In this document: positions 31,447-44,555 of the stretch, one piece after another
Numbering within the stretch: the stretch's first letter is position 1
How the letters are laid out: the number at the start of each line of letters is the position of its first letter
IMG/VR virus record: IMGVR_UViG_3300008267_000004
Location: 62,001-126,000 of that record
Length of the DNA stretch: 64,000 bases
Strand: one strand, 5' to 3'
DNA from: a virus
Notes under the pieces: model-generated
What the model saw: the letters and a program-made list of their open reading frames with translations, nothing else
Told to the model about the DNA's origin: nothing
Database searches by the model: none
Made by a program: the position numbers and the translations under genes

Positions 31447-31473
31447 GTTTAAATCCCCTTATAAAGCTGCCCT

Positions 31474-31614
31474 TTAATATCCACCATTTAGCTTATCGGT
31501 TACAATCTCAATTGCCAGGTTATCATAATAGATCTTTACGATTTTGTTTTTTGTTTTCTCCCCACTTTCGACAATTACGGTTAGCGTTGGTTTAGTGTTC
31601 TTTACGGTATACAC
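31474..31614 (-). CDS. Small beta-rich protein
   Basis: A GTG start at 31614 behind AAAGGATAT gives 46 residues with alternating hydrophobic strands (TLTVIVESGEKTKNKIVKIY). Function is unknown. Confidence 0.5.
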   Translation of the reverse strand: MYTVKNTKPTLTVIVESGEKTKNKIVKIYYDNLAIEIVTDKLNGGY

Positions 31615-31667
31615 GGCATATCCTTTATATTGTTAAGTTACCCATATGGACCACAAATGCATCTTGC

Positions 31668-31696
31668 ATTATATCACGGGCTGATTGTGAAGTCAA
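31668..31696 (-). promoter_or_regulatory. Early-type conserved promoter, best match
   Basis: TTGACT and TATAAT with a 17-nt spacer and TGA extension; upstream CTACTCTATCGGTGCAG. The stretch 31697-31897 otherwise holds no gene. Confidence 0.85.
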
Positions 31697-31897
31697 CCCC
31701 TTTTTATACTGCACCGATAGAGTAGACACTTGCGCCTTATCCTATACCCCCTACTATATCGGTAGGATAGTGGCACCCTATGCGTAGAGCTATACTGGTG
31801 GAATACTACTCCCACATAGCAAATTCATCAGGTTGTATTGACATATCCGAGCAGCCCATATATAACCTAAATACCTTTTTTATGTCATTTTTTTCTA

Positions 31898-32170
31898 TTA
31901 GCCTATATACAGCAGGATATGCCGTATCTCTCCTATCTCCATTCCCCTATCTATTCCCCCCTCAACCAACTCATAAAACAATTGCAGCGATGATTCCGTT
32001 ATACACTCATAACTTCCATAATCTCTCTCCCTCTCTACATCTACATAATAGTATCTTGTTTGCAACGCTGTAGTCATTAACTGGTTAACACCTGTTGGTA
32101 TCAGGTAAGCTGGATATGGTGATGCTTTATTACTTGGTTTTCTTTTGTATATCCTCCCAAGCTTAATCAT
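31898..32170 (-). CDS. Family A array protein (last gene)
   Basis: The 90-residue product starts MIKLGRIYKRK at an ATGA junction. The middle YYYVDVERERDYG and the final FYELVEGG match the family layout, followed by a 20-residue extension. It ends the array. Confidence 0.65.
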   Translation of the reverse strand: MIKLGRIYKRKPSNKASPYPAYLIPTGVNQLMTTALQTRYYYVDVERERDYGSYECITESSLQLFYELVEGGIDRGMEIGEIRHILLYIG

Positions 32171-32412
32171 TCTTGCCACTCACCTTCTTCTATAACCTTA
32201 TAGAACGATGTGATATCATACTCGCTTATAGGTCTCCCCGATACAGATGCATAACCTATATCGTAGTATCTATACATTGTCATATAATATTCTTTTTGTC
32301 GATATACTTTATGTGTTAATATCATGTATCTTGGAAATGTTGCAATTGCTGAATAGTTCTCTAATGACTTTAACTTATATACCTTCCCTAGATATACTTT
32401 TTCTTTTGTCAT
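32167..32412 (-). CDS. Family A array protein
   Basis: The 81-residue product (MTKEKVYLGKVYKLKS) uses an ATGA junction with the upstream gene. MYRYYDIGYAS replaces the usual LDEPD. Confidence 0.65.
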   Translation of the reverse strand: MTKEKVYLGKVYKLKSLENYSAIATFPRYMILTHKVYRQKEYYMTMYRYYDIGYASVSGRPISEYDITSFYKVIEEGEWQE

Positions 32413-32612
32413 TCCCAAAAACTATCCTCCATGAGTCTCCATCTTGTTATAAACTCGCCTAGCTTCATTATTGCATAGTTACCAGTTTCAATCACATTAT
32501 ACTTAACAAACTGCGCCTCTATTATGTTGATAAACTCGGTTGGGACGATGTACTCATTTGTTTTTAAGCTCTTGTATATCCTACCAAGTTTTACCACTGT
32601 TGTCTCCAGCAT
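32409..32612 (-). CDS. Family A array protein
   Basis: The 67-residue product has VVKLGRIYKSLKTNEYIVPTE near the start and ends RWRLMEDSFWE. Start lies right after the upstream stop. Confidence 0.65.
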   Translation of the reverse strand: MLETTVVKLGRIYKSLKTNEYIVPTEFINIIEAQFVKYNVIETGNYAIMKLGEFITRWRLMEDSFWE

Positions 32613-32840
32613 TTAAACATCATCCTCAACCAACTGGTAATGGAAATACAGATCCACATGGGATATATATGCAATTGATTCCTTGTCCTTGTCTATCCTG
32701 TGATATGAATATCTTTTGTTACCCATTCTATCGCCTACTGAGTAGTCGCCTGTTATCAGGACATATTCTGGATATATACTTTGTTGATTGGGGTTTCTTT
32801 TGTATATCCTGCCTATCTTGATTTTTTCTTTCTTGTCCAT
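32613..32840 (-). CDS. Family A array protein
   Basis: The 75-residue product has IKIGRIYKRNPNQ, YVLITGDY and a C-terminal FHYQLVEDDV. It lies largely within the 3' overlap of the upstream gene. Confidence 0.65.
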   Translation of the reverse strand: MDKKEKIKIGRIYKRNPNQQSIYPEYVLITGDYSVGDRMGNKRYSYHRIDKDKESIAYISHVDLYFHYQLVEDDV

Positions 32841-33072
32841 CTAGTTCTTCCTCAATTAATTTTATCCACTCTCCCAATTCAATTGCAGTTTCCTCCACAT
32901 ATTTTGGATCACCGTGTTTCTGTTCTGCATCTGCTCTATTGTTCATCCATACAAACTCTACAAACTTTCCTTGTTCTTCTTGTCTAAACCCCGTTACACA
33001 ATATATGTCTGGAGGTCTTTTTTGATCAAGGATGTTTATATAAAGTTTTCCTATCTCTATTTTATTTCCCAT
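32728..33072 (-). CDS. Family A array protein with out-of-frame C-terminal extension
   Basis: The 114-residue product starts MGNKIEIGKLYINI and has the family end GEWIKLIEEE near residue 75. It then reads about 38 residues in another frame across the next gene (113-nt overlap), as if its own stop had been lost. Confidence 0.6.
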   Translation of the reverse strand: MGNKIEIGKLYINILDQKRPPDIYCVTGFRQEEQGKFVEFVWMNNRADAEQKHGDPKYVEETAIELGEWIKLIEEELDGQERKNQDRQDIQKKPQSTKYISRICPDNRRLLSRR

Positions 33073-33158
33073 TTAGCTTTTGCCTTATGCCATACTTCCA
33101 TAGAGATCCATGATTCTGTTGCCCTTATCTTATAAATCTTTCCTAGTTTTATTTTCAT
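33057..33158 (-). CDS. Truncated family A protein next to HNH gene
   Basis: This 33-residue ORF reads MKIKLGKIYKIRATESW then soon stops. It keeps the family start but lacks the centre and end, and it lies directly downstream of the HNH gene, so it may be a remnant of an array gene damaged by that insertion. Confidence 0.5.
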   Translation of the reverse strand: MKIKLGKIYKIRATESWISMEVWHKAKAKWEIK

Positions 33159-33625
33159 GTCTCTCTCATATAATTTATGACCATCTCCAATTCCTCTAGG
33201 GTTGCATTGTTCTTTAATGCATTTGCCCTATAGCTTATAACTTTAATATTTCCTTTAATGTATCCTTTGTTATTGTCTACGCGATCCAAGGTTGGAAGAT
33301 TGGGTGAGTTTTTTGTTATTGCATCTGGGTTCTTTTCGATCTTGATTCCTAATACAGGGCAATACTCTGGAATGTTTATATCTTCTTTTGTGATATTGAA
33401 TTCAATATTTTTCTCTTTTGATCTTGTCTTTGCTTTTGTTAGCATTGTAGATACCCAACCACCTTTTGTTGACAAGGCCCACTTGCGGTTATTTATCTGC
33501 TTACATGATTTACAAACAAAGTATTTCCCTACGTTTCCACTTTTTTTATATTTTCTATCTGTGAACTCTGAAAGATCTTTTTCTTGTTTGCATCCATTAC
33601 AAAATTTTGTTGTTTTGTTTTCCAT
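33155..33625 (-). CDS. HNH endonuclease inserted in the array
   Basis: The 156-residue protein has CNGCKQEKDLSEF and CKSCKQINNRKW zinc knuckles and a C-terminal TLDRVDNNKGYIKGNIKVIS, the free-standing HNH homing nuclease signature of large phages. It starts by TAATG coupling. Such enzymes spread by cutting homologous DNA lacking the gene. Confidence 0.85.
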   Translation of the reverse strand: MENKTTKFCNGCKQEKDLSEFTDRKYKKSGNVGKYFVCKSCKQINNRKWALSTKGGWVSTMLTKAKTRSKEKNIEFNITKEDINIPEYCPVLGIKIEKNPDAITKNSPNLPTLDRVDNNKGYIKGNIKVISYRANALKNNATLEELEMVINYMRET

Positions 33626-33846
33626 TATTTTACCCATTTAGTTACTAACTTCCAATGACCTATATAATCTATATCTGATCCGTGTGATGGTTCAAACATT
33701 CTACCATTTATTCCTTCAACTGGTTTTCCGCCAACAACTGTAAATGCTACATAATATCCACCAGCAGCATTTCTATCCTCTATTACCTCATCAACTAGTA
33801 CATATTCACAATTGCTTGCTCGATAGATTCTACCCGGTATTAACAT
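33625..33846 (-). CDS. Family A array protein
   Basis: The 73-residue product starts MLIPGRIYRASNCEYVLVDE and ends IGHWKLVTKWVK. It lies upstream of the HNH gene with a 1-nt overlap. Confidence 0.65.
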   Translation of the reverse strand: MLIPGRIYRASNCEYVLVDEVIEDRNAAGGYYVAFTVVGGKPVEGINGRMFEPSHGSDIDYIGHWKLVTKWVK

Positions 33847-34045
33847 TTTCCACCAACCCGTATCCGTCTATAAAACCTTTTACTGTTATATAACCATCAT
33901 GCTTGGGATCGTCTAAGCGGACAACATGAATCATATGAGAGTCTCTCATGTATTCAGTTGGAACGACATAATCATCACCTTGCCATCTTCTATTTTTATA
34001 TATCTTTCCGAACTTTATCTGTTTCACCAGATCCTTGTTCTTCAT
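33830..34045 (-). CDS. Family A array protein
   Basis: The 71-residue product has IKFGKIYKNRRWQGDDYVVP and VVRLDDPKHDG, the LDEPD variant. It overlaps the upstream gene by 50 nt. Confidence 0.65.
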   Translation of the reverse strand: MKNKDLVKQIKFGKIYKNRRWQGDDYVVPTEYMRDSHMIHVVRLDDPKHDGYITVKGFIDGYGLVENVNTG

Positions 34046-34214
34046 CTGTTAATTCCCAATCACTAAAGATATGCTTTGGAGAACAAAATTCCTCATGTGT
34101 CCAATCTAATTCAATATAGGTTATATACGATTCATTTACGCCAGTTATTACTATAACTTCATTTTTGTTTTGATTACAGTACAACCTTCCTTCCTTAAAA
34201 TCCTGTTTCGGCAT
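33996..34214 (-). CDS. Family A array protein
   Basis: The 72-residue product has KEGRLYCNQNKNEVIVITG and IELDWTHEEF, then IFSDWELTDEEQ and a divergent tail. Confidence 0.65.
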   Translation of the reverse strand: MPKQDFKEGRLYCNQNKNEVIVITGVNESYITYIELDWTHEEFCSPKHIFSDWELTDEEQGSGETDKVRKDI

Positions 34215-34401
34215 TTAATTCATTCATCCCATCTTTAAATGCTGCTGTATTCCAAGTGCAGTGTTCATCTGGTTCATCTAGGTAAAAAAATTCGATTAAG
34301 ACTTCATGCTTTACTCTTCTTTTGCCAGTTACAACAACAACATCATCTTCATGTAAATATGGCTTACAACGAGTATACAGTTTACCTATTTGTATTTTCA
34401 T
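34195..34401 (-). CDS. Family A array protein
   Basis: The 68-residue product is a clear type member: IQIGKLYTRC, DVVVVTGKR, FFYLDEPDEHCTWNTAAFK. Confidence 0.7.
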   Translation of the reverse strand: MKIQIGKLYTRCKPYLHEDDVVVVTGKRRVKHEVLIEFFYLDEPDEHCTWNTAAFKDGMNELNAETGF

Positions 34402-34582
34402 GTTGAATATCTTTCCAATACATCTTAGCTAACCCTAATGCTCCTTCAACTACAGGAAAATCAGGTCTGTTAATATGATGATACCAAACTGAATCGGAGA
34501 TTTCTTCTATGTTATCAACAACGACAACATCATTTTTAATTGGCTCAATATACAAACGTCCCGGCTCAATCTTCTTGACCAT
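34382..34582 (-). CDS. Family A array protein
   Basis: The 66-residue product starts MVKKIEPGRLYIEPIKNDVV and has YHHINRPDFPVVEGA. Its start overlaps the upstream stop by 17 nt. Confidence 0.65.
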   Translation of the reverse strand: MVKKIEPGRLYIEPIKNDVVVVDNIEEISDSVWYHHINRPDFPVVEGALGLAKMYWKDIQHENTNR

Positions 34583-34775
34583 TACAAATCTCGTAATATT
34601 GTGTAAACTCATATAGATTAAAAAATGCTTCGTAACCCAAATGGACTATATGACCCCATACTTTATATGCTGTGTACGTTGTTGGTTGTGTTGAGACAAT
34701 TTCTAAAGGTATAAAATATACTCTTGTGCATTTTTCTACTTTTTTTGTTACATATACCTTTCCAAATTGTATCAT
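34566..34775 (-). CDS. Family A array protein
   Basis: The 69-residue product starts MIQFGKVYVTKKVEKC; the middle is more divergent (AYKVWGHIVHLG). ATGA junction upstream. Confidence 0.6.
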   Translation of the reverse strand: MIQFGKVYVTKKVEKCTRVYFIPLEIVSTQPTTYTAYKVWGHIVHLGYEAFFNLYEFTQYYEICNGQED

Positions 34776-34993
34776 ATAAATTCCCTTATCTCTTCAACTA
34801 TAAATGTATCAAAAAAAGTTCTCATGTTTCCAATACAATTACTTTCCCTATTGATGTAATGATAGTTTATCCATCCACCATTTGCGATAGATCCTATCTC
34901 GTCAAACATAATATATCTTTCTTCTTCTCCGGCAAATGTATTTTCTGGCTTTTTAAACTTTAGTTTGTATATTCTTCCTAAACAGAGATTCAT
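34772..34993 (-). CDS. Family A array protein
   Basis: The 73-residue product starts MNLCLGRIYKLKFK at an ATGA junction and has RYIMFDEIG and NYHYINRESNC in place of LDEPD. Confidence 0.65.
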   Translation of the reverse strand: MNLCLGRIYKLKFKKPENTFAGEEERYIMFDEIGSIANGGWINYHYINRESNCIGNMRTFFDTFIVEEIREFI

Positions 34994-35193
34994 ATTTGTC
35001 CCTCCACTAGTTTCCATTTCTGCATTTGAATGATTTCTGGTGTTATAAACATTATATGGTCTGGGGAGTTTAGATTGAAGCCGGAATAGAACTCTCCAAT
35101 TGCTTCTTTATTGGGAATTCCATCGGGATGATGATTACATATCAACACATATTGATTAGATATTTTATATATCCGCCCTAATTTAACCATCAT
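34990..35193 (-). CDS. Family A array protein
   Basis: The 67-residue product starts MMVKLGRIYKISNQYVLICN and has FNLNSPDHIMF and QKWKLVEGQI at the end. Confidence 0.65.
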   Translation of the reverse strand: MMVKLGRIYKISNQYVLICNHHPDGIPNKEAIGEFYSGFNLNSPDHIMFITPEIIQMQKWKLVEGQI

Positions 35194-35411
35194 AGACCTT
35201 GCATGTGCCAATCTTCTGTTATTTCAAAATATCTGCTTCTAAAGATTGAAATGTTACAATGAAAATTAGATTCAAGTTCTTCTAGAACTGCAAATTGAAC
35301 TTCCCCACGTGGATAGATTTTTTTTACTATCACAACTTGTGGCATTGTATCAATTTGTGCGTTTGGTTTCATTCTGTAAATCTTGCCAACTTTTACTGAA
35401 TCAGTTACCAT
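35190..35411 (-). CDS. Family A array protein
   Basis: The 73-residue product has VKVGKIYRMKPNAQ and VVIVKKIYPRGEVQF, with VLEELESN at the LDEPD position. Confidence 0.65.
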   Translation of the reverse strand: MVTDSVKVGKIYRMKPNAQIDTMPQVVIVKKIYPRGEVQFAVLEELESNFHCNISIFRSRYFEITEDWHMQGL

Positions 35412-35637
35412 CTTCCACCTCCATTAATTCAAATGTATCAAGTAATGTTCTTCTGGAAATAGGAAACAATTTATCTGGCTTATCTAATTCCATGTACCGA
35501 TATTGAGTATAATCTGGTCCATTTATTGCGGTGGCAGCTGTTGCATCCTCCATAAGGATAATGTATGGAGGATACAGGATATCTAATAGATCTTGAACAT
35601 CTTTTCTTTTTTTATAGACTCTGCCAAGTTTAACCAT
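35401..35637 (-). CDS. Family A array protein
   Basis: The 78-residue product starts MVKLGRVYKKRKD and has YRYMELDKPDKLF, a good LDEPD variant, then FELMEVEDGN. Confidence 0.7.
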   Translation of the reverse strand: MVKLGRVYKKRKDVQDLLDILYPPYIILMEDATAATAINGPDYTQYRYMELDKPDKLFPISRRTLLDTFELMEVEDGN

Positions 35638-35816
35638 TAAATGAATCCCATTACTTTTTTACAATTATCAAAAAATTCTTCTGGCATTGTTTGTTGAAAA
35701 TCGAGGTTTCTTACGTTTGCAACTTTATATCTTTTTGTTTTTACAACAAATTCTAATACAATTATGTATTCCTCAAATCCATTCATATACCAGACAGATC
35801 CTGGTTTAACCTTCAT
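35637..35816 (-). CDS. Family A array protein, divergent
   Basis: The 59-residue product starts MKVKPGSVWYMNGFEEYIIV; the GSVWY segment stands for GKIYK. TAATG junction downstream. Confidence 0.6.
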   Translation of the reverse strand: MKVKPGSVWYMNGFEEYIIVLEFVVKTKRYKVANVRNLDFQQTMPEEFFDNCKKVMGFI

Positions 35817-35994
35817 GCTCAACCCAATTTTTGTTAATAAACGCACCTTCCAGTTCATCATTGTTATCAGTCATTCGGAAAAAACTAGCTTGTGTCCATC
35901 CTTCTTTATATAAATGAACCCTAGAAATAAACACAATTGAATTGTTTTTTAGACACTTATAAACTTTACCGGCTTTAAATTTGATCATTGTCAT
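35806..35994 (-). CDS. Family A array protein
   Basis: The 62-residue product has MIKFKAGKVYKCLKNNSIVF and SFFRMTDNNDELEG, ending KNWVEHEG. Confidence 0.65.
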   Translation of the reverse strand: MTMIKFKAGKVYKCLKNNSIVFISRVHLYKEGWTQASFFRMTDNNDELEGAFINKNWVEHEG

Positions 35995-36172
35995 ATTCAA
36001 TCCAAACGTTTTTAATTAACGAATAAGGAACCCATCTATGAATTGTTGGGTCTTTTAAAAGAACATATTCTAGATGGCCGTTTTTTTCATCTGTCACACA
36101 AACAGTTTCTTCTCTTCCAAAGAAGATATGATAATAAAATCCTCCTACCTTTATTTTTTTATCATCTGCCAT
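35975..36172 (-). CDS. Family A array protein
   Basis: The 65-residue product has IKVGGFYYHIFFGREETVCV and YVLLKDPTIHRWVP, then KNVWIEYDND. Confidence 0.65.
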   Translation of the reverse strand: MADDKKIKVGGFYYHIFFGREETVCVTDEKNGHLEYVLLKDPTIHRWVPYSLIKNVWIEYDNDQI

Positions 36173-36372
36173 CTATCCACCTGATCATTTTCATATGCTA
36201 CATGAATATTATCTGGTTCATCAAGCATATGATATTCAATTAAAGTATTTTCCTGTAGACGGCTTCTTTTTACATCGGTGATAACCATAATTGGTTGTTC
36301 GTCTGGATCTTCTTCCATATATCTTGAGAATTTAGTTCTTTTACGGTAAAGTTTTCCTACTTGGAATTCCAT
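36151..36372 (-). CDS. Family A array protein
   Basis: The 73-residue product starts MEFQVGKLYRKRTKFSRY and has EYHMLDEPDNIHVAYENDQV, a type member. Confidence 0.7.
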   Translation of the reverse strand: MEFQVGKLYRKRTKFSRYMEEDPDEQPIMVITDVKRSRLQENTLIEYHMLDEPDNIHVAYENDQVDRWQMIKK

Positions 36373-36599
36373 TTAAACATCCTCATGTTTTCTTTTATCA
36401 ATACCCATTCACGTTCAGCGGTATCTTTCCATAAGAACCTCTCATTATTTGGTTCATCTAGATAATGATAGATATATCCATTCACAATATCATTTGGACC
36501 AAATTTTTCTGTTGAGAACTTTGTAACACAGATAATCTTCTTATCCCAATCTGCTGTATCGGGCCACAAGTATAATTTGCCTATTTTTATTGTTGTCAC
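36357..36599 (-). CDS. Family A array protein, GTG start
   Basis: The 80-residue product starts at a GTGA junction (TTIKIGKLYLWPD) and has YHYLDEPNNERFLWKDTA. Confidence 0.7.
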   Translation of the reverse strand: MTTIKIGKLYLWPDTADWDKKIICVTKFSTEKFGPNDIVNGYIYHYLDEPNNERFLWKDTAEREWVLIKENMRMFKWNSK

Positions 36600-36796
36600 G
36601 CTAATTCCCAATCGCTTTCATCTAGAAGAGAACTGTGTATATATTCTGCATCATTTAGAAAATAGTAATTATAGTATTCATACATTTCGTTATCAATTGA
36701 GTGACCAGCTATAACAATATAAGATGTATGATCTACCCCCGTTTGACGAAAGGTTCTTTTATAAACTTTTCCAATTTCTAATTTAAATTGTCTCAT
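36596..36796 (-). CDS. Family A array protein
   Basis: The 66-residue product starts MRQFKLEIGKVYKRTF and has YYFLNDAEYIHSS, ending ESDWELA. Confidence 0.65.
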   Translation of the reverse strand: MRQFKLEIGKVYKRTFRQTGVDHTSYIVIAGHSIDNEMYEYYNYYFLNDAEYIHSSLLDESDWELA

Positions 36797-37010
36797 TACA
36801 CACTTCCCAACCACGACGAATAAATTTGTCGAATACAACGTGCTTTGTTTCAAGATTGTCTAAATAGCTGTATATTACGGTATAATAGATGTTATTAGGA
36901 TGATATGTGGATCCTATCATATGTTTAATAACCTCTTGAATAAGTATATAAGTGTTTTTGTGAGTTTTGGACCTGTATATTTTACCGACTTCGATAGTGT
37001 GTTTTTTCAT
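36783..37010 (-). CDS. Family A array protein
   Basis: The 75-residue product starts MKKHTIEVGKIYRSKTHKN at an ATGA junction and has YSYLDNLETKHVVF, ending RRGWEVCNE. Confidence 0.65.
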   Translation of the reverse strand: MKKHTIEVGKIYRSKTHKNTYILIQEVIKHMIGSTYHPNNIYYTVIYSYLDNLETKHVVFDKFIRRGWEVCNETI

Positions 37011-37186
37011 AGCTTGGCCCAATTACTCATAACGTGTACATTAAGCTCTACATCTGGATCTTGTATATCGTAGGCAGATGCAAAACGCTCACCTGCCCAC
37101 ATATCTACATAATCTATACAAACAACCATCCCTGTATGTTTATTTACATACAATCTACCAACCTCGAAAAAATCAACATTCGCCAT
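37007..37186 (-). CDS. Family A array protein
   Basis: The 59-residue product has FFEVGRLYVNKHTGMVVCID and AYDIQDPDVELNVHV, ending SNWAKL. Confidence 0.65.
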   Translation of the reverse strand: MANVDFFEVGRLYVNKHTGMVVCIDYVDMWAGERFASAYDIQDPDVELNVHVMSNWAKL

Positions 37187-37358
37187 ACCAATCCTCAAAA
37201 TTTTCAATCGGCGTTTGTTCGATTAAATCAGGTTCATGCATACATTGATATTCTACATATACATCGCCTTCACTCTTAAAGATTTTTAAGATTACAACAC
37301 ACTCTTCTGGAAAGACGTAGTTTTGATATGCTTTACCAATTTTGAATACTTGATTCAT
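37173..37358 (-). CDS. Family A array protein
   Basis: The 61-residue product has FKIGKAYQNYVFPEECVVIL and YQCMHEPDLIEQTPIENF, ending EDWYGEC. Confidence 0.65.
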   Translation of the reverse strand: MNQVFKIGKAYQNYVFPEECVVILKIFKSEGDVYVEYQCMHEPDLIEQTPIENFEDWYGEC

Positions 37359-37590
37359 TTACTCTCAACCAATCTTCATAACAGTGTCTGTAATTTACTG
37401 CTGTATTCCAGCTAAACTTACTAAAGTTATTACCTCCATGAGTATACCACTCAATTCGATAAACATCTCCTCTTTCCAGTTTTTCTATTATTTGTCCAAG
37501 ACAGTCTTGATATGGTGTCATTACAAAATCACCAATATTAACTTCTCTAGCTTTTTCCCAACTAGGTTTCTTCCCAATTTCTGTAGGCAT
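37333..37590 (-). CDS. Family B protein inside the family A block
   Basis: The 85-residue product starts MPTEIGKKPSWEK and has VNIGDFVMTPYQDCLGQII and VYRIEWYTHGG, matching family B and especially 24880-25077. It is the only clear B member amid the A genes. Confidence 0.65.
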   Translation of the reverse strand: MPTEIGKKPSWEKAREVNIGDFVMTPYQDCLGQIIEKLERGDVYRIEWYTHGGNNFSKFSWNTAVNYRHCYEDWLRVNESSIQNW

Positions 37591-37822
37591 CCTGATTCCA
37601 AGCACCATGGTTAAAATTTGGTTCATCAATATACCAAAAAACAATCTGTCTTAGTTGATTTGGCATTTGATCTAAAATTGATTCTACAACTAGATATCTT
37701 CCTGTTTCTCTATCTTTATACATCTTACCGGGAATTATTTCCCTTTCTAGTTGCTCAACACCATTATTTTTTTCTTTAACCAATTCCATCAATCTCTTAA
37801 GGCTTCCCGGTTGCATCTTCAT
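37562..37822 (-). CDS. Family A array protein with N-terminal extension
   Basis: The 86-residue product has about 25 extra N-terminal residues before EIIPGKMYKDRETGRYLVVE, then FWYIDEPNFNHGAWNQDAY. Confidence 0.65.
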   Translation of the reverse strand: MKMQPGSLKRLMELVKEKNNGVEQLEREIIPGKMYKDRETGRYLVVESILDQMPNQLRQIVFWYIDEPNFNHGAWNQDAYRNWEET

Positions 37823-38009
37823 TTATTCTCACCCAAAATCCTGTCTCATTTAAGAAAAAAGTAAACAACTCTTCGTCTGGTTCTTCAAGATAAATAAACT
37901 GAAATCCTTTATCATCTACTTTGGTAATGCATATAACAGATTCAGACCCATAACTTCCTCTGTATAGGCAACCTACTTTGTAGTAATTTGTTGGATTTCT
38001 TTTAATCAT
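37797..38009 (-). CDS. Family A array protein
   Basis: The 70-residue product has YYKVGCLYRGSYGSESVICI and FIYLEEPDEELFTFF, a type member. Confidence 0.65.
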   Translation of the reverse strand: MIKRNPTNYYKVGCLYRGSYGSESVICITKVDDKGFQFIYLEEPDEELFTFFLNETGFWVRINEDATGKP

Positions 38010-38205
38010 CAAAATTTTCTAGTTCATCTATTTTATCTATCAAAACGTCTAAATATTCTTTAAATGGAAAACTTGGAGCGTGTAATCTAAATACTCTACA
38101 GATCGCGTCTTCGGTATTAGGATTTATAATATCCGTTATTACCAAAAAAGATTTTTCATATAACTTATCTTTTTCTCTGTATATTTTTCCCGGCTGTATT
38201 ATCAT
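38002..38205 (-). CDS. Family A array protein
   Basis: The 67-residue product starts MIIQPGKIYREKDKLYEKSF and has FRLHAPSFPF at the LDEPD position. Confidence 0.65.
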   Translation of the reverse strand: MIIQPGKIYREKDKLYEKSFLVITDIINPNTEDAICRVFRLHAPSFPFKEYLDVLIDKIDELENFDD

Positions 38206-38434
38206 TCCATGTCTCTTTAAAATCTTGTAAAAAAGATTTAACTGTTTTACCCATCGGATGTTTTTCTAAGTCAGAAACATAGTGAAATATTACCATATCC
38301 GACTTTTTTTCGGTTACAATAACATATTCTGGAACTGGTTCCATAGTGACAGGATCAATATATGATTTCCATTTTGTTGCATATATTTTACCCAGCTTTA
38401 TTTCTGCTGGCTCTCTTTTTTGACTCTGATCCAT
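38165..38434 (-). CDS. Family A array protein with N-terminal extension
   Basis: The 89-residue product has PAEIKLGKIYATKWKS and EYVIVTEKKSD, with FHYVSDLEKHPMG at the LDEPD position. It overlaps the gene downstream by 41 nt. Confidence 0.65.
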   Translation of the reverse strand: MDQSQKREPAEIKLGKIYATKWKSYIDPVTMEPVPEYVIVTEKKSDMVIFHYVSDLEKHPMGKTVKSFLQDFKETWNDNTAGKNIQRKR

Positions 38435-38601
38435 TCATCAATCACCTTTGAATTTTTATATGGTCCATGGACAATATATTTATTTTCTTTATTCATTTCT
38501 TCAGGTAGTTCTAAGGATGATTGTACACCTTTAGTCTCCTTATTTACATAAATATACCATCTCTCTGGGTCTTTCTCTTTATTGGCTTTTACTTTCATCA
38601 T
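38398..38601 (-). CDS. Divergent array-located protein
   Basis: The 67-residue, Lys-rich product lacks the GKIY motif. Its end YKNSKVIDEWIRVKKE resembles the family's C-terminal W region. It may be a rearranged family A protein. Confidence 0.5.
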   Translation of the reverse strand: MMKVKANKEKDPERWYIYVNKETKGVQSSLELPEEMNKENKYIVHGPYKNSKVIDEWIRVKKESQQK

Positions 38602-38602
38602 T

Positions 38603-38794
38603 TCAATCCTTTACTTCAGTAAAGCAATTCAAAAATAACATTTTAGAAAACCAAGATTCTTTATCGTAAGTCATATATCTAATTTTATACATCATAACTT
38701 CATATGCGAATCCTTGCGGTAATCTTTTACCTTGCGAGATCACTACGACATGATTTTCGTTTTTATCCTTGAATACTTTTCCAATAACGCTCAT
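38603..38794 (-). CDS. Family A array protein
   Basis: The 63-residue product starts MSVIGKVFKDKNENHVVVIS and has YKIRYMTYDKESWFSK. Confidence 0.6.
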   Translation of the reverse strand: MSVIGKVFKDKNENHVVVISQGKRLPQGFAYEVMMYKIRYMTYDKESWFSKMLFLNCFTEVKD

Positions 38795-38978
38795 TTACTT
38801 CCCTTGTTTTACCTAGAAAACTATCATAAAGATCATACCTAATTTCATCTGACTTAAGATTATGTAGCTGAACCCACTTTAGGTTGCCATCCATATATGT
38901 TTTAAGAACACAATATACATCCAGCATACTCATCTTTTGATAATAAAAATGTCCGACCTTAAGTGATCTTTTAGCCAT
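38763..38978 (-). CDS. Family A array protein
   Basis: The 71-residue product starts MAKRSLKVGHFYYQKMSML by TAATG coupling and has WVQLHNLKSDEIRY. Confidence 0.6.
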   Translation of the reverse strand: MAKRSLKVGHFYYQKMSMLDVYCVLKTYMDGNLKWVQLHNLKSDEIRYDLYDSFLGKTREVNERYWKSIQG

Positions 38979-39197
38979 TACCATTCTCCATACCACTCGC
39001 AAAAAACTGAGACAGAATCTGTAATCATATGTTCTGGATCATCTATAGCATAGTATTCAATTATCATGCCTTTATATGCTTCAAAGATATCACTCACAAC
39101 CACAGGAATTGCCTCATCCCCGTCAACAATTATTCGATACATCCTACCGATAAGTGGTTCTTTTTTTTTTGTCTTTGAGACTATAATACTCCATCAT
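38978..39197 (-). pseudogene. Family A array gene with frameshift in an A10 run
   Basis: From ATG 39197 or 39194 the frame runs MEYYSLKDKKK and then stops. After the run of ten A at 39161-39170 a +1-shifted frame reads EPLIGRMYRIIVDGDE and YYAIDDPEHM, ending EWYGEW and TAATG. With nine A the two would join into a normal family A protein. It is a pseudogene, a slippage-controlled gene or a homopolymer error. Confidence 0.6.
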
Positions 39198-39200
39198 ATT

Positions 39201-39263
39201 CTATCTTTTAACCGGCTTAATTGGAGAAATTGGTGTGACCGGAGCAACTGGAATTATACCCAT
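39201..39263 (-). CDS. Tiny proline-rich ORF
   Basis: A 20-residue ORF MGIIPVAPVTPISPIKPVKR starts inside the end of the upstream gene and ends 4 nt before the next start. It is a weak call based on spacing and the regular Pro pattern. Confidence 0.3.
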   Translation of the reverse strand: MGIIPVAPVTPISPIKPVKR

Positions 39264-39466
39264 GATCCATCCTTTTTCGTAAATATATTTCTAAAATCAC
39301 TTACAGTTCTACAAAATGTTGGATAGAATGTCCCAACATCTGCAAGATTTGAAATATATTCTGCAAATACGGTAGATCCTTTTATATCGAGGATAACAAC
39401 ATATTTGTCATCTCCAATGTCTGGATCGTATCTAAACCAAAGTTCACCTATAGATGGAAAACTCAT
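39254..39466 (-). CDS. Family A-like array protein
   Basis: The 70-residue product has SIGELWFRYDPDIGDDKYVV and VFAEYISNLADVG. GELWFR stands for GRIYK, so it is an outlying member. Confidence 0.55.
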   Translation of the reverse strand: MSFPSIGELWFRYDPDIGDDKYVVILDIKGSTVFAEYISNLADVGTFYPTFCRTVSDFRNIFTKKDGSWV

Positions 39467-39656
39467 TAATCTTATCCTCTATTCCTCTTTTGGTAATTTC
39501 TTCAAAGCTCTTAGTAACTTTGTATTTATCATACGAGTTTGGACGCATTTGATGCAATCCAATATATGTATTATGATAAATTAATAATTCTTCATCAGAA
39601 AATAATTCTACTTCTTTATCAATAGCTGTAATCATTTCTTTAGTTAGTGACATCAT
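39444..39656 (-). CDS. Helical array-located protein
   Basis: The 70-residue product (MMSLTKEMITAIDKE) is helical with FSDEELLIYHNTYIG. It belongs to neither family and marks the shift from A to B genes. Confidence 0.55.
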   Translation of the reverse strand: MMSLTKEMITAIDKEVELFSDEELLIYHNTYIGLHQMRPNSYDKYKVTKSFEEITKRGIEDKINEFSIYR

Positions 39657-39861
39657 ATCCTTTCTCCATTTTTTGAAAAGTATATCCAAACATTACATCA
39701 GGTTCGTTTGTTAGCGGGAACCAATCACACATATCAAGATTTTTTTCAATCCAATAAACTTTATATCTATTTATATCGGATCTATAATCGGTAACAACAA
39801 AATGATTTGTATCTCCAATCATATGAGTTTGTTTTATTACATCACCAATTTTAAACTTCAT
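39640..39861 (-). CDS. Family B array protein
   Basis: The 73-residue product starts MKFKIGDVIKQTHMIGDTNH and has YKVYWIEKNLD and TNEPDVM, mixing the B core with an A-like LDEPD echo, which suggests common ancestry of A and B. Confidence 0.6.
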   Translation of the reverse strand: MKFKIGDVIKQTHMIGDTNHFVVTDYRSDINRYKVYWIEKNLDMCDWFPLTNEPDVMFGYTFQKMEKGYDVTN

Positions 39862-40123
39862 CGGTTTTCTCTTCTTCCTCTTCCCTTAGAGAAATATTTT
39901 CATTTGCTACAATCCAAAAATTTCCATCTAATCTAACATGAGTATGTTCTTGATCATATGCAGTAGATTCAGTAAAAACTTCATTTACTGCATATCCTTT
40001 ACTTTCTTTCTCCATCACCTTACCAATAGCGTGTAGTTCTTTTTCATTTTTACCTTTGTAATAAATTGTAAATATTGGAGAACCTACTTTTACATATATT
40101 GGCTGTTCATGGTTGAAATACAT
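39851..40123 (-). CDS. Family B-like array protein, acidic tail
   Basis: The 90-residue product has YVKVGSPIFTIYYKG, AIGKVMEKESKGYAV and an acidic end (LREEEEEKTDEV). Confidence 0.55.
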   Translation of the reverse strand: MYFNHEQPIYVKVGSPIFTIYYKGKNEKELHAIGKVMEKESKGYAVNEVFTESTAYDQEHTHVRLDGNFWIVANENISLREEEEEKTDEV

Positions 40124-40367
40124 TTGGAACCTTTCTGTACGTAAAAGGATAATCTGATTCTGGAGTGTCTTTTAGGAGCATATCGTTATACTCAATTCCG
40201 GTATTCAAGCAATACACATCATATAAATATTGTGATTCTATGTTTAGCTTAACTTTAAGTACTGTTATCATCACAGAAGTTTGATCTTCGATACAGAACT
40301 CTTCAACCATATCGCCAACATTGAATTTAGGATTGTCGAACAAAGTATTTCCAGAATGATTCAGCAT
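40107..40367 (-). CDS. Family B array protein
   Basis: The 86-residue product has PKFNVGDMVEEFCIEDQ and YLYDVYCLNTG. It overlaps the upstream gene by 41 nt. Confidence 0.6.
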   Translation of the reverse strand: MLNHSGNTLFDNPKFNVGDMVEEFCIEDQTSVMITVLKVKLNIESQYLYDVYCLNTGIEYNDMLLKDTPESDYPFTYRKVPNVFQP

Positions 40368-40584
40368 ATAGTTCACACTCTTTTCCAGTTGCTATGTCAA
40401 TGTATTTGACTGTATGAACACATTTTTTAACTGGCTTAATCCTTGTTGTCCATTCTACTTTTTCAATATCTGTCACAGCAACTGAATTGCTATATATCTT
40501 ACCAATTTCAATTATTGCTTCATCATATTCATACTTAGAAAGTTTTGTTATCTTTCTTGCTGGAAAACCGCTTCCGTCACTCAT
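40327..40584 (-). CDS. Family A array protein (outlier position)
   Basis: The 85-residue product has AIIEIGKIYSNSVAVTDIEK and HTVKYIDIATGKECELY. It lies between B genes. Confidence 0.55.
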   Translation of the reverse strand: MSDGSGFPARKITKLSKYEYDEAIIEIGKIYSNSVAVTDIEKVEWTTRIKPVKKCVHTVKYIDIATGKECELYAESFWKYFVRQS

Positions 40585-40903
40585 CTACCCTCCGAAGATA
40601 TTTAAGAGGGATAACAAACTCTCCAGTATATTTATCATCCATGATCGTACATGAAATGAGTGGAAAGCCGTTACGTTGATAGAAGATGCTATTGATTGCT
40701 ACTATAGAATCTTGAAACACATAGTAATTTGTTCTAGCCAAATCTCCGACTTTCCACTCATTTGTCATAGCATCTATCGCTTTCTGTTTAGACGACGTGC
40801 TCGACGTTTCTTGCTTCCTAACTTCCTGCGTCCTTTTCGTGGACGGTTCTTGTGTGGATGTGCCATGTGTATCGCCTCCCTTCTTAATTGTAAATATTGC
40901 CAT
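40577..40903 (-). CDS. Family B array protein with disordered N-terminus
   Basis: The 108-residue product has about 45 Thr/Ser/Lys-rich residues and then WKVGDLARTNYYVFQDSIV and FVIPLKYLRRVDE. Confidence 0.6.
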   Translation of the reverse strand: MAIFTIKKGGDTHGTSTQEPSTKRTQEVRKQETSSTSSKQKAIDAMTNEWKVGDLARTNYYVFQDSIVAINSIFYQRNGFPLISCTIMDDKYTGEFVIPLKYLRRVDE

Positions 40904-41150
40904 TAAACAACCTCACGTATTCAGAGATTTCAGAATCTTTGAAACCTGCACTTGTGAGTTGGTTATACTTTTCTTCTGTGATCAAAAATTGCGGTTTGAC
41001 ATAACCTGTCAGTCCGTCACTCCATTCAATATAAGGAATTGAAGTGCCTAATCTAAAATTTTGAATAGTACCCGAAACATTTCCCTTATCACCATACTTA
41101 GTGGCTTCGGGGCATACGACGCTGGTTCCTACCTTATAGATGCTCGACAT
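40884..41150 (-). CDS. Family B array protein, promoter-proximal
   Basis: The 88-residue product has YKVGTSVVCPEATKYGD, GTIQNFRLG and YIEWSDGLTGYV, then a helical tail. It follows the promoter at 41181-41209. Confidence 0.65.
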   Translation of the reverse strand: MSSIYKVGTSVVCPEATKYGDKGNVSGTIQNFRLGTSIPYIEWSDGLTGYVKPQFLITEEKYNQLTSAGFKDSEISEYVRLFNGNIYN

Positions 41151-41180
41151 ATGTTATTTCCTCGCTGAAAAGACACCGCC

Positions 41181-41209
41181 AGTATATCACGGGCCGGTTT
41201 AGAAGTCAA
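41181..41209 (-). promoter_or_regulatory. Promoter inside the array
   Basis: TTGACT and TATACT with a 17-nt spacer and TGA extension. It overlaps the 3' end of the upstream gene and probably drives the array to its left. Confidence 0.75.
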
Positions 41210-41492
41210 GAACTTTTTTACCGTCAGGATTTATTAGAAACTGTAAATAATTATCTCTGAATCTATTAACATCATAAATATCATGTGGGACAATAGATTC
41301 CTTCCCTCCCTCCCACCATAACACTTCTGCATATATCCCATCTGATTGGAAATTTTGAACACATCCCATAATGTATTCACCACCATCAGAAAAAAATTGT
41401 TCAGATAGTTTGGTAACACCAGCAACCCGGTACAGCACCAGATCCCCTACTTTGTATTTTATTTTTCTCTGAGTTTTCTGTTTATGTCGCAT
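41199..41492 (-). CDS. Family B array protein
   Basis: The 97-residue product has YKVGDLVLYRVAGVTK, MGCVQNFQSDG and AEVLWWEGGKESIV, then FRDNYLQFLIN. Its 3' end contains the 41181 promoter. Confidence 0.65.
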   Translation of the reverse strand: MRHKQKTQRKIKYKVGDLVLYRVAGVTKLSEQFFSDGGEYIMGCVQNFQSDGIYAEVLWWEGGKESIVPHDIYDVNRFRDNYLQFLINPDGKKVLDF

Positions 41493-41505
41493 ACCAGCCG
41501 CCGCA

Positions 41506-41781
41506 TTATCCGCTTGCTTCTAGTTCTTTTTGACACACCTCGCTAAATTCAAGATACTTCTCTCGATACTCAAGAACATCTTTTTCAGCGAAGGCTTCAT
41601 CATCACCTTCATTATCTGACCATACAAGACGATAATAATATCCACTAGTATCAAAGTTGGTAGGAATTAAAACTTCAGTAATTTCACCAATTGCATATTG
41701 TCCTTCTACTATATTTTGCTTATCATCAAAGTAATCATCTAATACAATTTCACCAACTTTGAATTTTGGTTGTGGTCTCAT
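41506..41781 (-). CDS. Family B array protein
   Basis: The 91-residue product has FKVGEIVLDDYFDDKQN, AIGEITEVLIP and YRLVWSDNEGDDE, then YREKYLEFSEV. Confidence 0.65.
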   Translation of the reverse strand: MRPQPKFKVGEIVLDDYFDDKQNIVEGQYAIGEITEVLIPTNFDTSGYYYRLVWSDNEGDDEAFAEKDVLEYREKYLEFSEVCQKELEASG

Positions 41782-41789
41782 ATTAAATC

Positions 41790-42188
41790 CTAAAACTTGT
41801 AAGTCCCAATCATGGTTTCATCAACACTATAAACAACCTTAGAAATTCCTCGTTCCTCAAGCAAAGCATGGCACATATTGCAGGGTTTGCTCATACGCAT
41901 CGAACCATCCTTCTTAGACGCACGAACAACATACATCGTTGCACCCTTTGTTACGCTACGATCAAGGCCAAGTATGGCTGAAATCTCAGCGTGATAAGTG
42001 CTGTGTCCCTTATCACTATGCCTAAACTTAGCACCAACACTAGAATACTTCTCGTTATTAACACCCAAGCCGAGGATTGCCGAACCCTTTTCAAGAACTG
42101 CACCATGCCGAAAATTACCGTATTCGCTACTAACAGCGAGTTTTTGTGCCAACTTGGAGTAACCTCCGAATCTTCTTAGATGCATCAC
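41790..42188 (-). CDS. Cytidine/dCMP deaminase-like protein
   Basis: The 132-residue protein has the zinc site HAEISAILG (HAE) and KPCNMCHALL (PCxxC), as in cytidine and deoxycytidylate deaminases. It would supply dUMP for dTTP or act on another pyrimidine. It is a metabolic gene inside the small-protein array and overlaps the next gene by 4 nt. Confidence 0.8.
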   Translation of the reverse strand: MMHLRRFGGYSKLAQKLAVSSEYGNFRHGAVLEKGSAILGLGVNNEKYSSVGAKFRHSDKGHSTYHAEISAILGLDRSVTKGATMYVVRASKKDGSMRMSKPCNMCHALLEERGISKVVYSVDETMIGTYKF

Positions 42189-42463
42189 TCAGGCTGAATA
42201 TCGTTTCCATCGAGATCCTCCGGCTTAAAATGAAGCCCCATAGCTTCGTTAATACACTTCATCATGAACTTACCAGAACGAACAAATGCCTCTTTTTCAT
42301 ATCCTGGCATTGATTCGTCTGACCACTCAATTGCATATAATTTTGTAGATTCATCATAACCAACAACAGTTCCTACAATTGGTGATTCATGTTCTTGTGA
42401 CGGTTTTGCGTAGATCATATCACCATTCTTAATTTCTACTTTAGTCTCTGGCTTCTTCTTCAT
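42185..42463 (-). CDS. Family B array protein
   Basis: The 92-residue product has IKNGDMIYAKPSQEHES, GTVVGYDESTKLYAIEWSDE and a helical tail. Confidence 0.65.
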   Translation of the reverse strand: MKKKPETKVEIKNGDMIYAKPSQEHESPIVGTVVGYDESTKLYAIEWSDESMPGYEKEAFVRSGKFMMKCINEAMGLHFKPEDLDGNDIQPE

Positions 42464-42716
42464 TTTCGTATCCCTCAAGTGTTTCCACAAGTAAATGTTT
42501 ATATCTAGCTATTGAACCGCTATCGTAGCTCATGAGTTCATCTTCGTCGTTCCAAAGAACATGATATTCTTTATATCCCTTAATAACACCTGGAGTAATT
42601 TCCGAAATATAACCAATAATTGGTACATCCATTGAATCAAAATAATCTGGCTCTACACACATAACCAGATCGCCAACTTTATGCTTTTCAAAATTTACTT
42701 TGTAACCACTAGGCAT
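42441..42716 (-). CDS. Family B array protein
   Basis: The 91-residue product has HKVGDLVMCVEPDYFD, GYISEITPGVIKG and YHVLWNDEDELM. Confidence 0.65.
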   Translation of the reverse strand: MPSGYKVNFEKHKVGDLVMCVEPDYFDSMDVPIIGYISEITPGVIKGYKEYHVLWNDEDELMSYDSGSIARYKHLLVETLEGYENEEEARD

Positions 42717-42922
42717 GGCTCATTTACCTTATCTTCTACCCATTCTTCTGCAAACCAACCACAATCAACACCAAATTCACCTAAATCTTCAGAAGGCTCG
42801 CAGAAGTGAATAAGATAATCATTATATCTTCCACGATGATTTTTTTTCTTGATTATCACTCCAAGACCATAATATTCATCATATATCAATTGACCGTTCT
42901 TGAATTTGAATTGGCAATCCAT
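42695..42922 (-). CDS. Family B-like array protein
   Basis: The 75-residue product has FKNGQLIYDEYYGLGVIIKK and DYLIHFCEPSEDLGEF, with SEP as an LDEPD echo. Confidence 0.6.
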   Translation of the reverse strand: MDCQFKFKNGQLIYDEYYGLGVIIKKKNHRGRYNDYLIHFCEPSEDLGEFGVDCGWFAEEWVEDKVNEPCLVVTK

Positions 42923-43148
42923 TTAACGCATCCTGATAGTTTTGAATAATCTCAGCAATAAAGTTTGCTTCGTCGCTGTACCAATCATCATCGTTATCGT
43001 CAAAGATGATGTTGTATGGGAATGAAGTATTAGGATTTTTATCTATCGCAACAATCACTCCAATAGAGGGTTGAAGAAATTTATGATCTTCTCTATCTGG
43101 TTTTGGTAGAAACAAAACAGGTGTACCAACTTTATAATCCGTATCCAT
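42879..43148 (-). CDS. Family B array protein
   Basis: The 89-residue product has YKVGTPVLFLPKPDRED, GVIVAIDKNPN and YNIIFDDNDDDWYSDE. Confidence 0.65.
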   Translation of the reverse strand: MDTDYKVGTPVLFLPKPDREDHKFLQPSIGVIVAIDKNPNTSFPYNIIFDDNDDDWYSDEANFIAEIIQNYQDALNGLPIQIQERSIDI

Positions 43149-43395
43149 ATTCCTCACTCAACCTTTCAGCTTCTTCTGGCATCATCTTGCCGTTAACAGC
43201 TTGTTTCCAATACAGTTCAACCCAAGGTTCTTCATACCATGAATCTTCATCATCTTCCCAGATGATTCTGTATACGTATTCGTTGTCCTCTTCTTTTATG
43301 TCCACAATTGCGCCCAACTGTGGGGTCATAATTTTTTCGTAATTGGGTCCAGTATCTATATAACAAACAACTGGAGTTCCTATCTTAAGGATCAT
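43132..43395 (-). CDS. Family B array protein, first of the array
   Basis: The 87-residue product has LKIGTPVVCYIDTG, GAIVDIKEEDNEYVYRIIWED and WVELYWKQAVNG. Confidence 0.65.
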   Translation of the reverse strand: MILKIGTPVVCYIDTGPNYEKIMTPQLGAIVDIKEEDNEYVYRIIWEDDEDSWYEEPWVELYWKQAVNGKMMPEEAERLSEEYGYGL

Positions 43396-43426
43396 TGTTT
43401 TTCCTTTAGGTCAAGAAAAGTCAATT

Positions 43427-43600
43427 TCATGGGTTATATTTTTCCACAATATTAATATCCAACAAGATACCACACCAAGGACAATACGTAATTGGTTGTG
43501 GTTCCATGATTAAATAGAATCTATCAACTTCGTAATTAAAATAGATTCCATAACGTTCAGACTCATCACAACATTTTACGTCTACTGTATCGTTTGCCAT
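43427..43600 (-). CDS. Small cysteine-rich protein
   Basis: The 57-residue product has VKCCDESERYGIYFNYE and YCPWCGILL, likely one zinc. It is the first gene upstream of the array. ATG 43600 overlaps the upstream stop. Confidence 0.6.
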   Translation of the reverse strand: MANDTVDVKCCDESERYGIYFNYEVDRFYLIMEPQPITYCPWCGILLDINIVEKYNP

Positions 43601-43845
43601 TATGCCTTCCTGTTCCGCTCATTGTGCTTACGGAGCCTTTCTGAGTTTCTTTTAGCTAACAACGTAGCCGTCTTTAGCTGTTGCATTAATCTGATATGCC
43701 TATCTTGTTTTGCACGCTCCATATCCTTTATAAACCTACGATCAAGAACCCAGCTTTCAATCTTTGGAAGAATAAAGAGGTTCCAGATGTTAAAGAAGAA
43801 GATAGTACAGTTAATGAAAATAATCATATACAGTACATCACGCAT
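43600..43845 (-). CDS. Membrane-anchored basic helix protein
   Basis: The 81-residue product has one N-terminal TM helix (VLYMIIFINCTIFFFNIW) and a long basic helical C-terminus (KRNSERLRKHNERNRK). Function is unknown. Confidence 0.65.
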   Translation of the reverse strand: MRDVLYMIIFINCTIFFFNIWNLFILPKIESWVLDRRFIKDMERAKQDRHIRLMQQLKTATLLAKRNSERLRKHNERNRKA

Positions 43846-44186: not shown

Positions 44187-44230
44187 ATAAACCTCTGAAA
44201 AAGTGGTATAAGCGCCCAAACCCAGCAGAT

Positions 44231-44259
44231 AGTATAGCAAAAACTGGCTGTGAAGTCAA
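44231..44259 (-). promoter_or_regulatory. Early-type conserved promoter
   Basis: TTGACT and TATACT with a 17-nt spacer; upstream GTTCTATCCGTGCAGTTTTT. The upstream block partly overlaps the T-tail of the terminator at 44294-44317. Confidence 0.8.
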
Positions 44260-44545: not shown

Positions 44546-44555
44546 AAGTACAAAT

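Follow-up and report, generated by a model that had tools for sequence, protein, structure and literature searches.

Tandem array of diverged, probably barrel-like small proteins in a contractile-tail phage and its relatives

The window analysed here is a 64,000-nucleotide stretch of phage DNA, positions 62001-126000 of a 187,450-base virus record (IMGVR_UViG_3300008267_000004; G000), which carries a tandem array of small paralogous open reading frames (ORFs) on the minus strand from 43395 to 31898. We read 50 ORFs in this array, of which 33 were assigned to a family A, 13 to a family B and four to neither. The 46 paralogous ORFs lie within 11.5 kb and one of them is frame-broken. An initial annotation had reported such an array with about 47 paralogues; the array was present on reading the ORFs, profiles and decoys placed it beyond chance, and the count was corrected to 46. 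There is an even chance, in our estimate, that the array represents an early accessory operon encoding dozens of diverged SH3-like barrels, each probably binding its own host macromolecule, with a repertoire that turns over by whole genes.

Leave-one-out hidden Markov models recovered 27 of the 33 A members and 8 of the 13 B members at E<0.01. The members missed, numbered from the 43395 end, were g11, g16, g17, g19, g34 and g39 in family A and g03, g09, g10, g12 and g14 in family B. At the same threshold, neither the 619 small ORFs located elsewhere in the record nor the 38 antisense ORFs gave any match to the A profile. The B profile likewise matched 0/38 antisense ORFs and found three of the 619 small ORFs, which are apparently extra B genes outside the array. 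Among the 49 junctions 42 overlap, one abuts and six are gapped. Nearly all junctions had been described as overlaps of the ATGA or TAATG type; overlap indeed prevails (42/49), but 1- or 4-nt overlaps of this type account for only 11 of the 42, the remaining 31 spanning 8-113 nt. The proposed organization as one co-directional operon of diversified modules was supported.

A single ancestor of both families had been suggested on the basis of a mixed gene at 39640-39861. Comparison of the A and B profiles gave no support for this idea (hhalign probability 0.66%, E 0.086), and no cross-matches were obtained at E<0.01 (0/13 and 0/33). Because A and B have no detectable common sequence signal, a common origin is unsupported by sequence. 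A shared fold alone is no proof of homology.

One member of each family was modelled with AlphaFold2. The model of the A member g42 (33996-34214) was built from 35 aligned sequences and reached a mean predicted local distance difference test score (pLDDT) of 86.3 and a predicted template modelling score (pTM) of 0.67; the B member g07 (41506-41781), with 24 aligned sequences, reached 91.6 and 0.78. DSSP assigned strands to residues 11-14, 19-26, 30-35 and 42-46 of g42, followed by a helix at 47-50 and a strand at 53-55, which is an SH3-like order. Judged by DSSP and the structure search, g42 thus combines the five-strand order and short helical turn before the last strand with SH3-like neighbours. 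In g07, four strands, one of them 15 residues long, are followed by a long C-terminal helix. The PDB neighbours of g42 include Spt5 KOW, RapA N-terminal, UvrD Tudor and TnsB chains, all with Z ≤6.6; in Foldseek, KOW/Tudor chains appeared with a probability of about 1 but at E≥0.03. Chromo-barrel, Tudor and MBT chains made up most neighbours of g07 (Z ≤6.0). The g42 model fits a small SH3-like barrel, the g07 model may do so as well, and both are silent on the target. The shared small barrel anticipated by the initial annotation is therefore backed by barrel-like models for g42 and g07, and the other members would presumably adopt it as well. KOW, Tudor, chromo-barrel and PWWP SH3-like domains resemble the models at the level of structural neighbours.

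Among the listed matches to sequence libraries, the barrel members had weak ones. None of the 24 Pfam families listed at E≤1 for the 50 ORFs is a KOW family, the sole Tudor model among them is PTM_DIR17_Tudor (one member, E 0.063), and no ORF of the 50 reached the cut-off for Pfam KOW or Tudor membership. Against PDB sequences, the best match of the B profile was the histone methyltransferase NSD3 (PWWP domain; E 0.0013), and the A profile found no match. A single one of the 50 members matched a PADLOC defence model, weakly (E 0.027). One relative (L239:4537-4743) matched PF08940 DUF1918 over residues 1-58 (E 0.0018), at 18.3 bits below the curated cut-off of 24, and the B profile found 2a7y, the Rv2302 structure linked to DUF1918, at E 0.79. 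The Pfam matches listed for the 50 window ORFs do not include DUF1918, the phage record has 0 matches to it, and we know of no tandem arrays of this domain. We note a weak likeness in one relative and no family membership. Some B relatives in other viruses matched PHROGs 9469, 2827, 11307 and 18715, all of unknown function (best E 1.8e-4); none of the four was among the matches listed for the 50 window ORFs, which cover 25 of 26 families.

A cluster of 24 transfer RNA (tRNA) genes at 44556-48963 is followed downstream by the short-ORF operon. The motif TTGACT-N14-TGN-TATAAT, with an extended -10 element, occurs 17 times in the window at ≤2 mismatches compared with 1.29 expected, a number reached in 0 of 100 shuffles, and is likely a phage early promoter. 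Its three sites between 31000 and 45000 (at 44259, 41209 and 31696) all lie on the coding strand. The first (44231-44259, minus strand, TTGACT-N14-TGN-TATACT, 1 mismatch) is located upstream of the operon, behind a terminator-like hairpin with a 10-bp stem, seven GC pairs and a T run that separates the operon from the tRNA cluster (44293-44318, minus strand). The second (41181-41209, minus strand, 1 mismatch) is internal and ends where one of the few true gaps separates g08 from g09, and the third (31668-31696, minus strand, 0 mismatches) lies just downstream of the array, in front of the next operon. Further examples are found at 49222-49250 and 56618-56646. A plain sigma-70 scan of 31000-45000 detected 56 sites compared with 62.2 in shuffles, so that such sites are not enriched; one of them, at 36696 on the coding strand, matches at 11 of 12 positions. 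The sigma-70 and terminator scan revealed no terminator-like site on the coding strand within the array. Transcription of the approximately 50 array genes might thus depend on two or three promoters of host type. These promoter-like sites fit early expression of the array but do not show it.

Comparison with relatives pointed to turnover of array genes. One record, G001, is identical over the whole window and therefore provides no independent check. A second phage, G006, shares about 72-81% nucleotide identity with the window in the main collinear left-hand blocks; its array, which is syntenic and lies near a tRNA cluster, comprises 4 A and 12 B genes. L122, a close relative of G006, has 4 A and 17 B genes. 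Gain and loss of array genes was evident from these two relatives, which differ by whole genes: at 45% identity, 3 of the 16 G006 genes lack a partner in L122, and 9 of the 22 L122 genes lack one in G006. The other 13 of the 16 listed G006 array genes are partnered at 51-100% identity with ratios of nonsynonymous to synonymous substitution (dN/dS) of 0-0.29, which are rough since dS exceeds 1 in 6 of the 13. Two barrel-like genes beyond the main block gave 0.38 and 0.55. Across 165 pairs of orthologous B genes (55-98% identity, dS 0.05-1.5, gene ends trimmed; pairs not independent), the median dN/dS was 0.195 and one pair exceeded 1. By this measure, orthologous array genes are under purifying selection. 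Positive selection between copies, as first envisaged, was rejected by dN/dS for the orthologues tested; the window paralogues are too diverged for such an estimate.

Family A has a narrow distribution in our data. A arrays were found only in this phage (two records identical over the window) and, with four genes each, in G006 and L122; single A matches occurred in G003 and, weakly, in G035. An A-type two-copy DNA pattern retrieved 10 stretches, which look like chance as none has an A-family match. The relative G003 contains about 20 genes of a third, GDII-type family (L098:11526-17331), and this array is weakly nearer to B (E 4e-4) than to A (E 0.009). In G005, no array was found at the corresponding place, which falls at two record ends, and the record may be incomplete. 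Among cultured phages, a megablast search of window 31000-44000 against 50,697 phage records returned no match. When eight single array proteins (two from the window, six from relatives) were used in tblastn, six had no match at E≤1 (one at E≤0.1), one matched a Klebsiella phage at E 1e-3 and another a different Klebsiella phage at E 0.7. A literature search by title and start of abstract in open-licence PubMed Central text found no such phage arrays among the matches listed.

Family B, in contrast to A, is widespread. Iterated B profiles detected 13-22 copies, mostly clustered, in 6 of 12 relatives (G006, G011, G024, G025, G026 and G030), whereas G003, G005 and G010 had a few, G022 a single copy and G004 and G019 no copy; several of the twelve records are fragments. 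An exact DNA pattern made up of two consecutive unit starts was present in at least 120 viral-contig stretches. The same pattern gave one stretch in 84,980 bacterial and archaeal genomes. This stretch, L304, belongs to a metagenome bin of candidate division WOR-3; it has three B-profile matches, and a prophage or phage contamination of the bin might account for it. The 80 viral stretches that were listed contain 798 B genes among 5,164 small ORFs, with four or more B genes in 72 of the 80 and 27 within 11 kb in one.

In these arrays successive genes often interlock. At the joint, the TGA stop of the upstream gene is read across two codons of a downstream K-V-G-D motif, its T being the final base of the Gly codon and its GA the opening bases of the Asp codon. 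Of 447 adjacent pairs, 341 have the stop within the K-V-G-D codons, and an overlap of 14 nt was counted 338 times. Since the pattern used to fetch the loci itself contains GGTGAY, unique junctions whose start is unmatched by that pattern were counted separately, and 186 of 256 have the joint. In genomes found via PhoH, 127 B genes bear the motif and 91 of these are overlapped by an upstream ORF; the joint is present in 39 of the 91 and is thus common there but not in the majority. The consensus of 299 joints, chosen for TGA and a 14-nt overlap, is TTGGAGGT-n-ATCA-rTGAAAGTCGGTGATTTGGT. One frame of this segment of about 33 nt provides a Shine-Dalgarno sequence, spacer, start codon and M-K-V-G-D-L-V, while the other encodes L-E-V-I-[S/N]-E-S-R-stop, the C-terminus of the upstream protein. 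In 252 of the 299 joints, the final codons of the upstream gene contain a Shine-Dalgarno core of at least four bases. A review gives 4, 1 and 8 nt as common spacings of coupled genes, a set that lacks 14 nt, and reports that coupling falls with longer overlaps (PMC12548453). We therefore read the joint as part of the unit and not as tuned coupling.

Several observations indicate that the joint is also the place where units are rearranged. Two G006 genes (L121 coordinates) look like chimeras, each of two L122 genes. In the first, identity to these genes is 0.93/0.32 left and 0.32/0.95 right of the motif; the second is less sharp (0.81/0.25 left, 0.53/0.78 right). Insertions or deletions of 386 bp (two units) and 222 bp (one unit) also distinguish G006 from L122. 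Over 88 loci, 23 of 24 unique in-array indel breakpoints were located within 20 nt of a looser form of the motif (30 events, 24 of them unique; 40 events outside arrays set aside), compared with a mean of 5.5 and a maximum of 13 in 1000 random draws. With a narrower motif and all events, many of which lie outside arrays, 25 of 57 breakpoints were within 20 nt and the median distance was 173.5. As read from these alignments, the pattern shows exchange of units at the repeated block and does not indicate the responsible enzyme. No integrase was among the matches listed for the 50 array ORFs (25 of 26 PHROG families), a statement about these ORFs, as the whole genome and attC sites were not searched.

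The closest known mode is that of the esaG and tipC immunity-gene strings of firmicute type VII secretion, which according to the abstract recombine homologously at conserved blocks, located in tipC at the 5′ and 3′ ends (PMC9484751). Both cases involve strings of non-identical paralogues that grow and shrink at conserved blocks. They differ in that esaG and tipC are bacterial immunity genes, for which the abstract mentions no dual-coded joint, whereas here barrel-like phage proteins are concerned and one block encodes parts of two proteins. For such remodelling of tandem strings by recombination, the window array displays the tandem non-identical copies, and breakpoints in shared blocks were seen in relatives only. 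The anti-defence islands of large vibrio phages, described as variable accessory zones of mixed genes, many uncharacterised (PMC12028318), resemble the array as a variable uncharacterised zone but differ from the one probable fold repeated here.

Tentatively, and with the balance leaning somewhat against it, we propose that these arrays form an unnamed, widespread phage class in which every gene is a cassette. The joint would hold the ribosome-binding site, start codon and N-terminal motif together with the C-terminus and stop codon of the previous gene and would serve as recombination site, and the window array would represent a diverged relative in which a second barrel family prevails. If so, whole barrels could be added, removed or exchanged while frame, termination and translation start stay intact. 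This wider class of interlocked arrays in other viruses is a more interesting result than the window array itself.

For the window, the reading introduced at the outset assumes an early-expressed accessory operon in which the phage maintains dozens of diverged SH3-like (Tudor/KOW-like) barrel proteins, each of a single domain. Each barrel would bind a different host macromolecule for takeover or counter-defence, and whole genes would enter and leave the repertoire by recombination at the short shared block coding every gene's start. Binding of host targets would give the array an anti-defence or host takeover role, and the window's own array may have grown by recombination at the joint like those of the relatives. 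Isoelectric points (pI) range from 4.1 to 9.3 in family A and are mostly acidic in B; the wide A range is easier to reconcile with a variety of partners than with a single function common to all, and DNA mimicry is disfavoured as such a function.

A number of points weigh against this reading. Targets are known for none of the members, and a shared fold shows no function. Foldseek gave no PDB match at E≤0.001 for either model, myosin X, TraI and MscS-type channel chains equal the KOW/Tudor chains in Z-score for the A model, and library matches are weak, the best Pfam match of barrel members being SH3-C_UBE2O (2 members, E 0.0037). Orthologues display no diversifying selection, which an arms race might leave. 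In the window's own array the exact joint is absent (0/14 motif-bearing B genes). The overlaps there vary, and a few A junctions (g26, g41 and g44) also stop within G-K or G-R codons. Breakpoint midpoints were set where BLAST alignments overlap, which favours any repeated block. Finally, similarity within the window does not clearly follow distance (adjacent pairs, p 0.34 for A and 0.08 for B; rank correlation, p 0.06 and 0.31); recent tandem duplication within the window was rejected for want of a clear correlation.

The array might alternatively encode regulators that bind nucleic acids or RNA polymerase and ribosome, similar to KOW and Tudor domains, and jointly tune transcription and translation of host and phage. 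The Spt5, RapA, UvrD and TnsB neighbours of the A model agree with this, as does the position of arrays near tRNA genes in the window, G006, L122, G011, G024, G025 and G026. The Z-scores of the A model are nevertheless within the range of chance matches, no tRNA genes occur in the array stretches of G003 and G030, and tRNA-gene zones are known as general accessory-gene zones. Given also the wide pI spread with B mostly acidic, we hold this explanation to be unlikely, though worth keeping in view. It is improbable that the array accumulated mainly non-adaptively, the motif being a recombination-prone repeat, small genes duplicating freely and most copies doing little. Turnover by whole units would be expected under such accumulation, and so would the probably decayed copy at 33158-33057, the frame-broken g17 and the endonuclease gene in the array, but only one of the 46 paralogous ORFs in 11.5 kb is frame-broken and orthologues in relatives have a dN/dS of about 0.2. 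That the array proteins are subunits of one multi-component assembly, such as a virion decoration or hetero-oligomeric ring with copies specialised by position, is very improbable: a single operon of one probable fold would suit this, and barrel folds often oligomerise, but close relatives differ greatly in how many and which members they carry, no array was found at that place in G005 (two record ends, perhaps incomplete), and the head and tail genes lie elsewhere in the record.

The array is composed as follows, all genes being on the minus strand and E-values referring to leave-one-out profiles unless noted. It begins with the B genes g01 (43132-43395, E 2e-6), g02 (42879-43148, 9e-5), g03 (42695-42922, weak, 0.06), g04 (42441-42716, 3e-5) and g05 (42185-42463, 6e-6). 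The dCMP deaminase gene g06 (41790-42185; phrog_174, E 1.9e-15) is not one of the paralogues. B genes continue with g07, the modelled member with barrel-like strands (profile E 8e-9), g08 (41199-41492, 1e-4) and g09 (40884-41150, borderline, 0.01). Gene g10 (40577-40903) was assigned to B by motif only; its profile E of 4 is unsupportive and it may not belong. It is followed by g11 (40327-40584), assigned to A by motif (weak, 0.3), and by the B genes g12 (40107-40367, weak, 0.2), g13 (39851-40123, 0.004) and g14 (39640-39861, weak, 0.1; iterated B profile 9.8e-4). The unrelated g15 (39444-39656) resembles by eye the C-terminal part of L098:12228-12617, a barrel gene of the G003 array that seems fused to a g15-like segment and links the two arrays by position.

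From here on family A predominates, starting with g16 (39254-39466, weak, E 1). Gene g17 (38978-39142, 0.02) has a frame-broken N-terminus. Its N-terminal part continues upstream in another frame beyond a run of ten A residues at 39161-39170 (minus strand); a short ORF in the 39161-39197 region enters this run, the rest of the A-type gene being in the other frame. Slippage at the tract, breakage of the gene and an error of assembly are all conceivable; the one further record recovered is identical. The A genes g18 (38763-38978, 0.005) and g19 (38603-38794, weak, 0.1) precede g20 (38398-38598), an unrelated small ORF by ORF reading. Next are g21 (38165-38434, 1e-7), g22 (38002-38205, 3e-5), g23 (37797-38009, 4e-5) and g24 (37562-37822, 1e-5), the B gene g25 embedded among them (37333-37626, 3e-4), and g26 (37173-37358, 4e-6), g27 (37007-37186, 0.003), g28 (36783-37010, 6e-7), g29 (36596-36796, 3e-6), g30 (36357-36599, 2e-8), g31 (36151-36372, 2e-10), g32 (35975-36172, 0.004) and g33 (35806-35994, 0.009). 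The weak member g34 (35637-35822) has a TTG start at 35822 and a profile E of 0.05 when read from 35813. It is succeeded by g35 (35401-35637, 1e-5), g36 (35190-35411, 3e-6), g37 (34990-35190, 4e-5), g38 (34772-34993, 6e-4), the borderline g39 (34566-34775, 0.02), g40 (34382-34582, 6e-7), g41 (34195-34401, 1e-9), the modelled g42 (profile E 1e-7), g43 (33830-34045, 7e-7) and g44 (33625-33846, 9e-5). The HNH/endonuclease VII-like gene g45 (33155-33625; phrog_3322, E 1.1e-33) lies within the array and is followed by a 33-codon remnant with the family-A-like start MKIKLGKIYK, probably a decayed copy (33057-33158). The array ends with g46 (32728-33072, profile E 4e-5), whose long tail reads through 113 nt of g47, and with g47 (32613-32840, 5e-11), g48 (32409-32612, 9e-7), g49 (32167-32412, 5e-4) and g50 (31898-32170, 3e-6).

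Beyond the array, the minus strand carries an extra B gene at 24880-25077 (G000 86880-87077, B profile E 5e-7) and B-like genes at 22782-23024 (G000 84782-85024, E 4e-5) and 53425-53649 (G000 115425-115649, E 0.003). Next to the last one, a 224-residue protein (52758-53432, minus strand) has a B-like stretch at its C-terminus (iterated profile 3.8e-6) and is a possible source of the domain.

The gene set of the record is that of a contractile-tail phage, with tail sheath, baseplate wedge, terminase, portal and major head protein; it also includes a DNA polymerase and GroEL, the latter at full length (L112:12971-14548; phrog_5725, E 2e-141). In the window, we also observed a ClpP-like protease (PF00574, 13135-13728), a SpoU rRNA methylase (PF00588, 9832-10389), a predicted transfer-messenger RNA gene (14118-14406) and a total of 26 tRNA genes. 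A 452-residue ORF at 10624-11982 displays, by eye, an N-terminal hydrophobic segment and a CxxCH motif of the heme c type and has no Pfam match at E≤0.01; a c-type heme protein would be unusual in a phage. A small family recognized by eye shares a GCPxGAIEYVGGF-like core (27244-27621 and 29614-30000, with one copy in G006 at L085:13463-13816), and both window copies lack a Pfam match at E≤0.01.

Taken as a whole, the analysis suggests that, among the many small uncharacterised genes of a large phage genome, dozens can share a single fold. A conserved C-terminal motif such as LEVISESR can be a by-product of the start of the next gene and need not be a functional site. If the cassette proposal is true, the joint would act as an integron-like diversity generator for host-targeting proteins, perhaps without a dedicated recombinase. 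If the barrels bind host molecules, phages would reshuffle their arsenal gene by gene, and hundreds of candidates would be available for screening.

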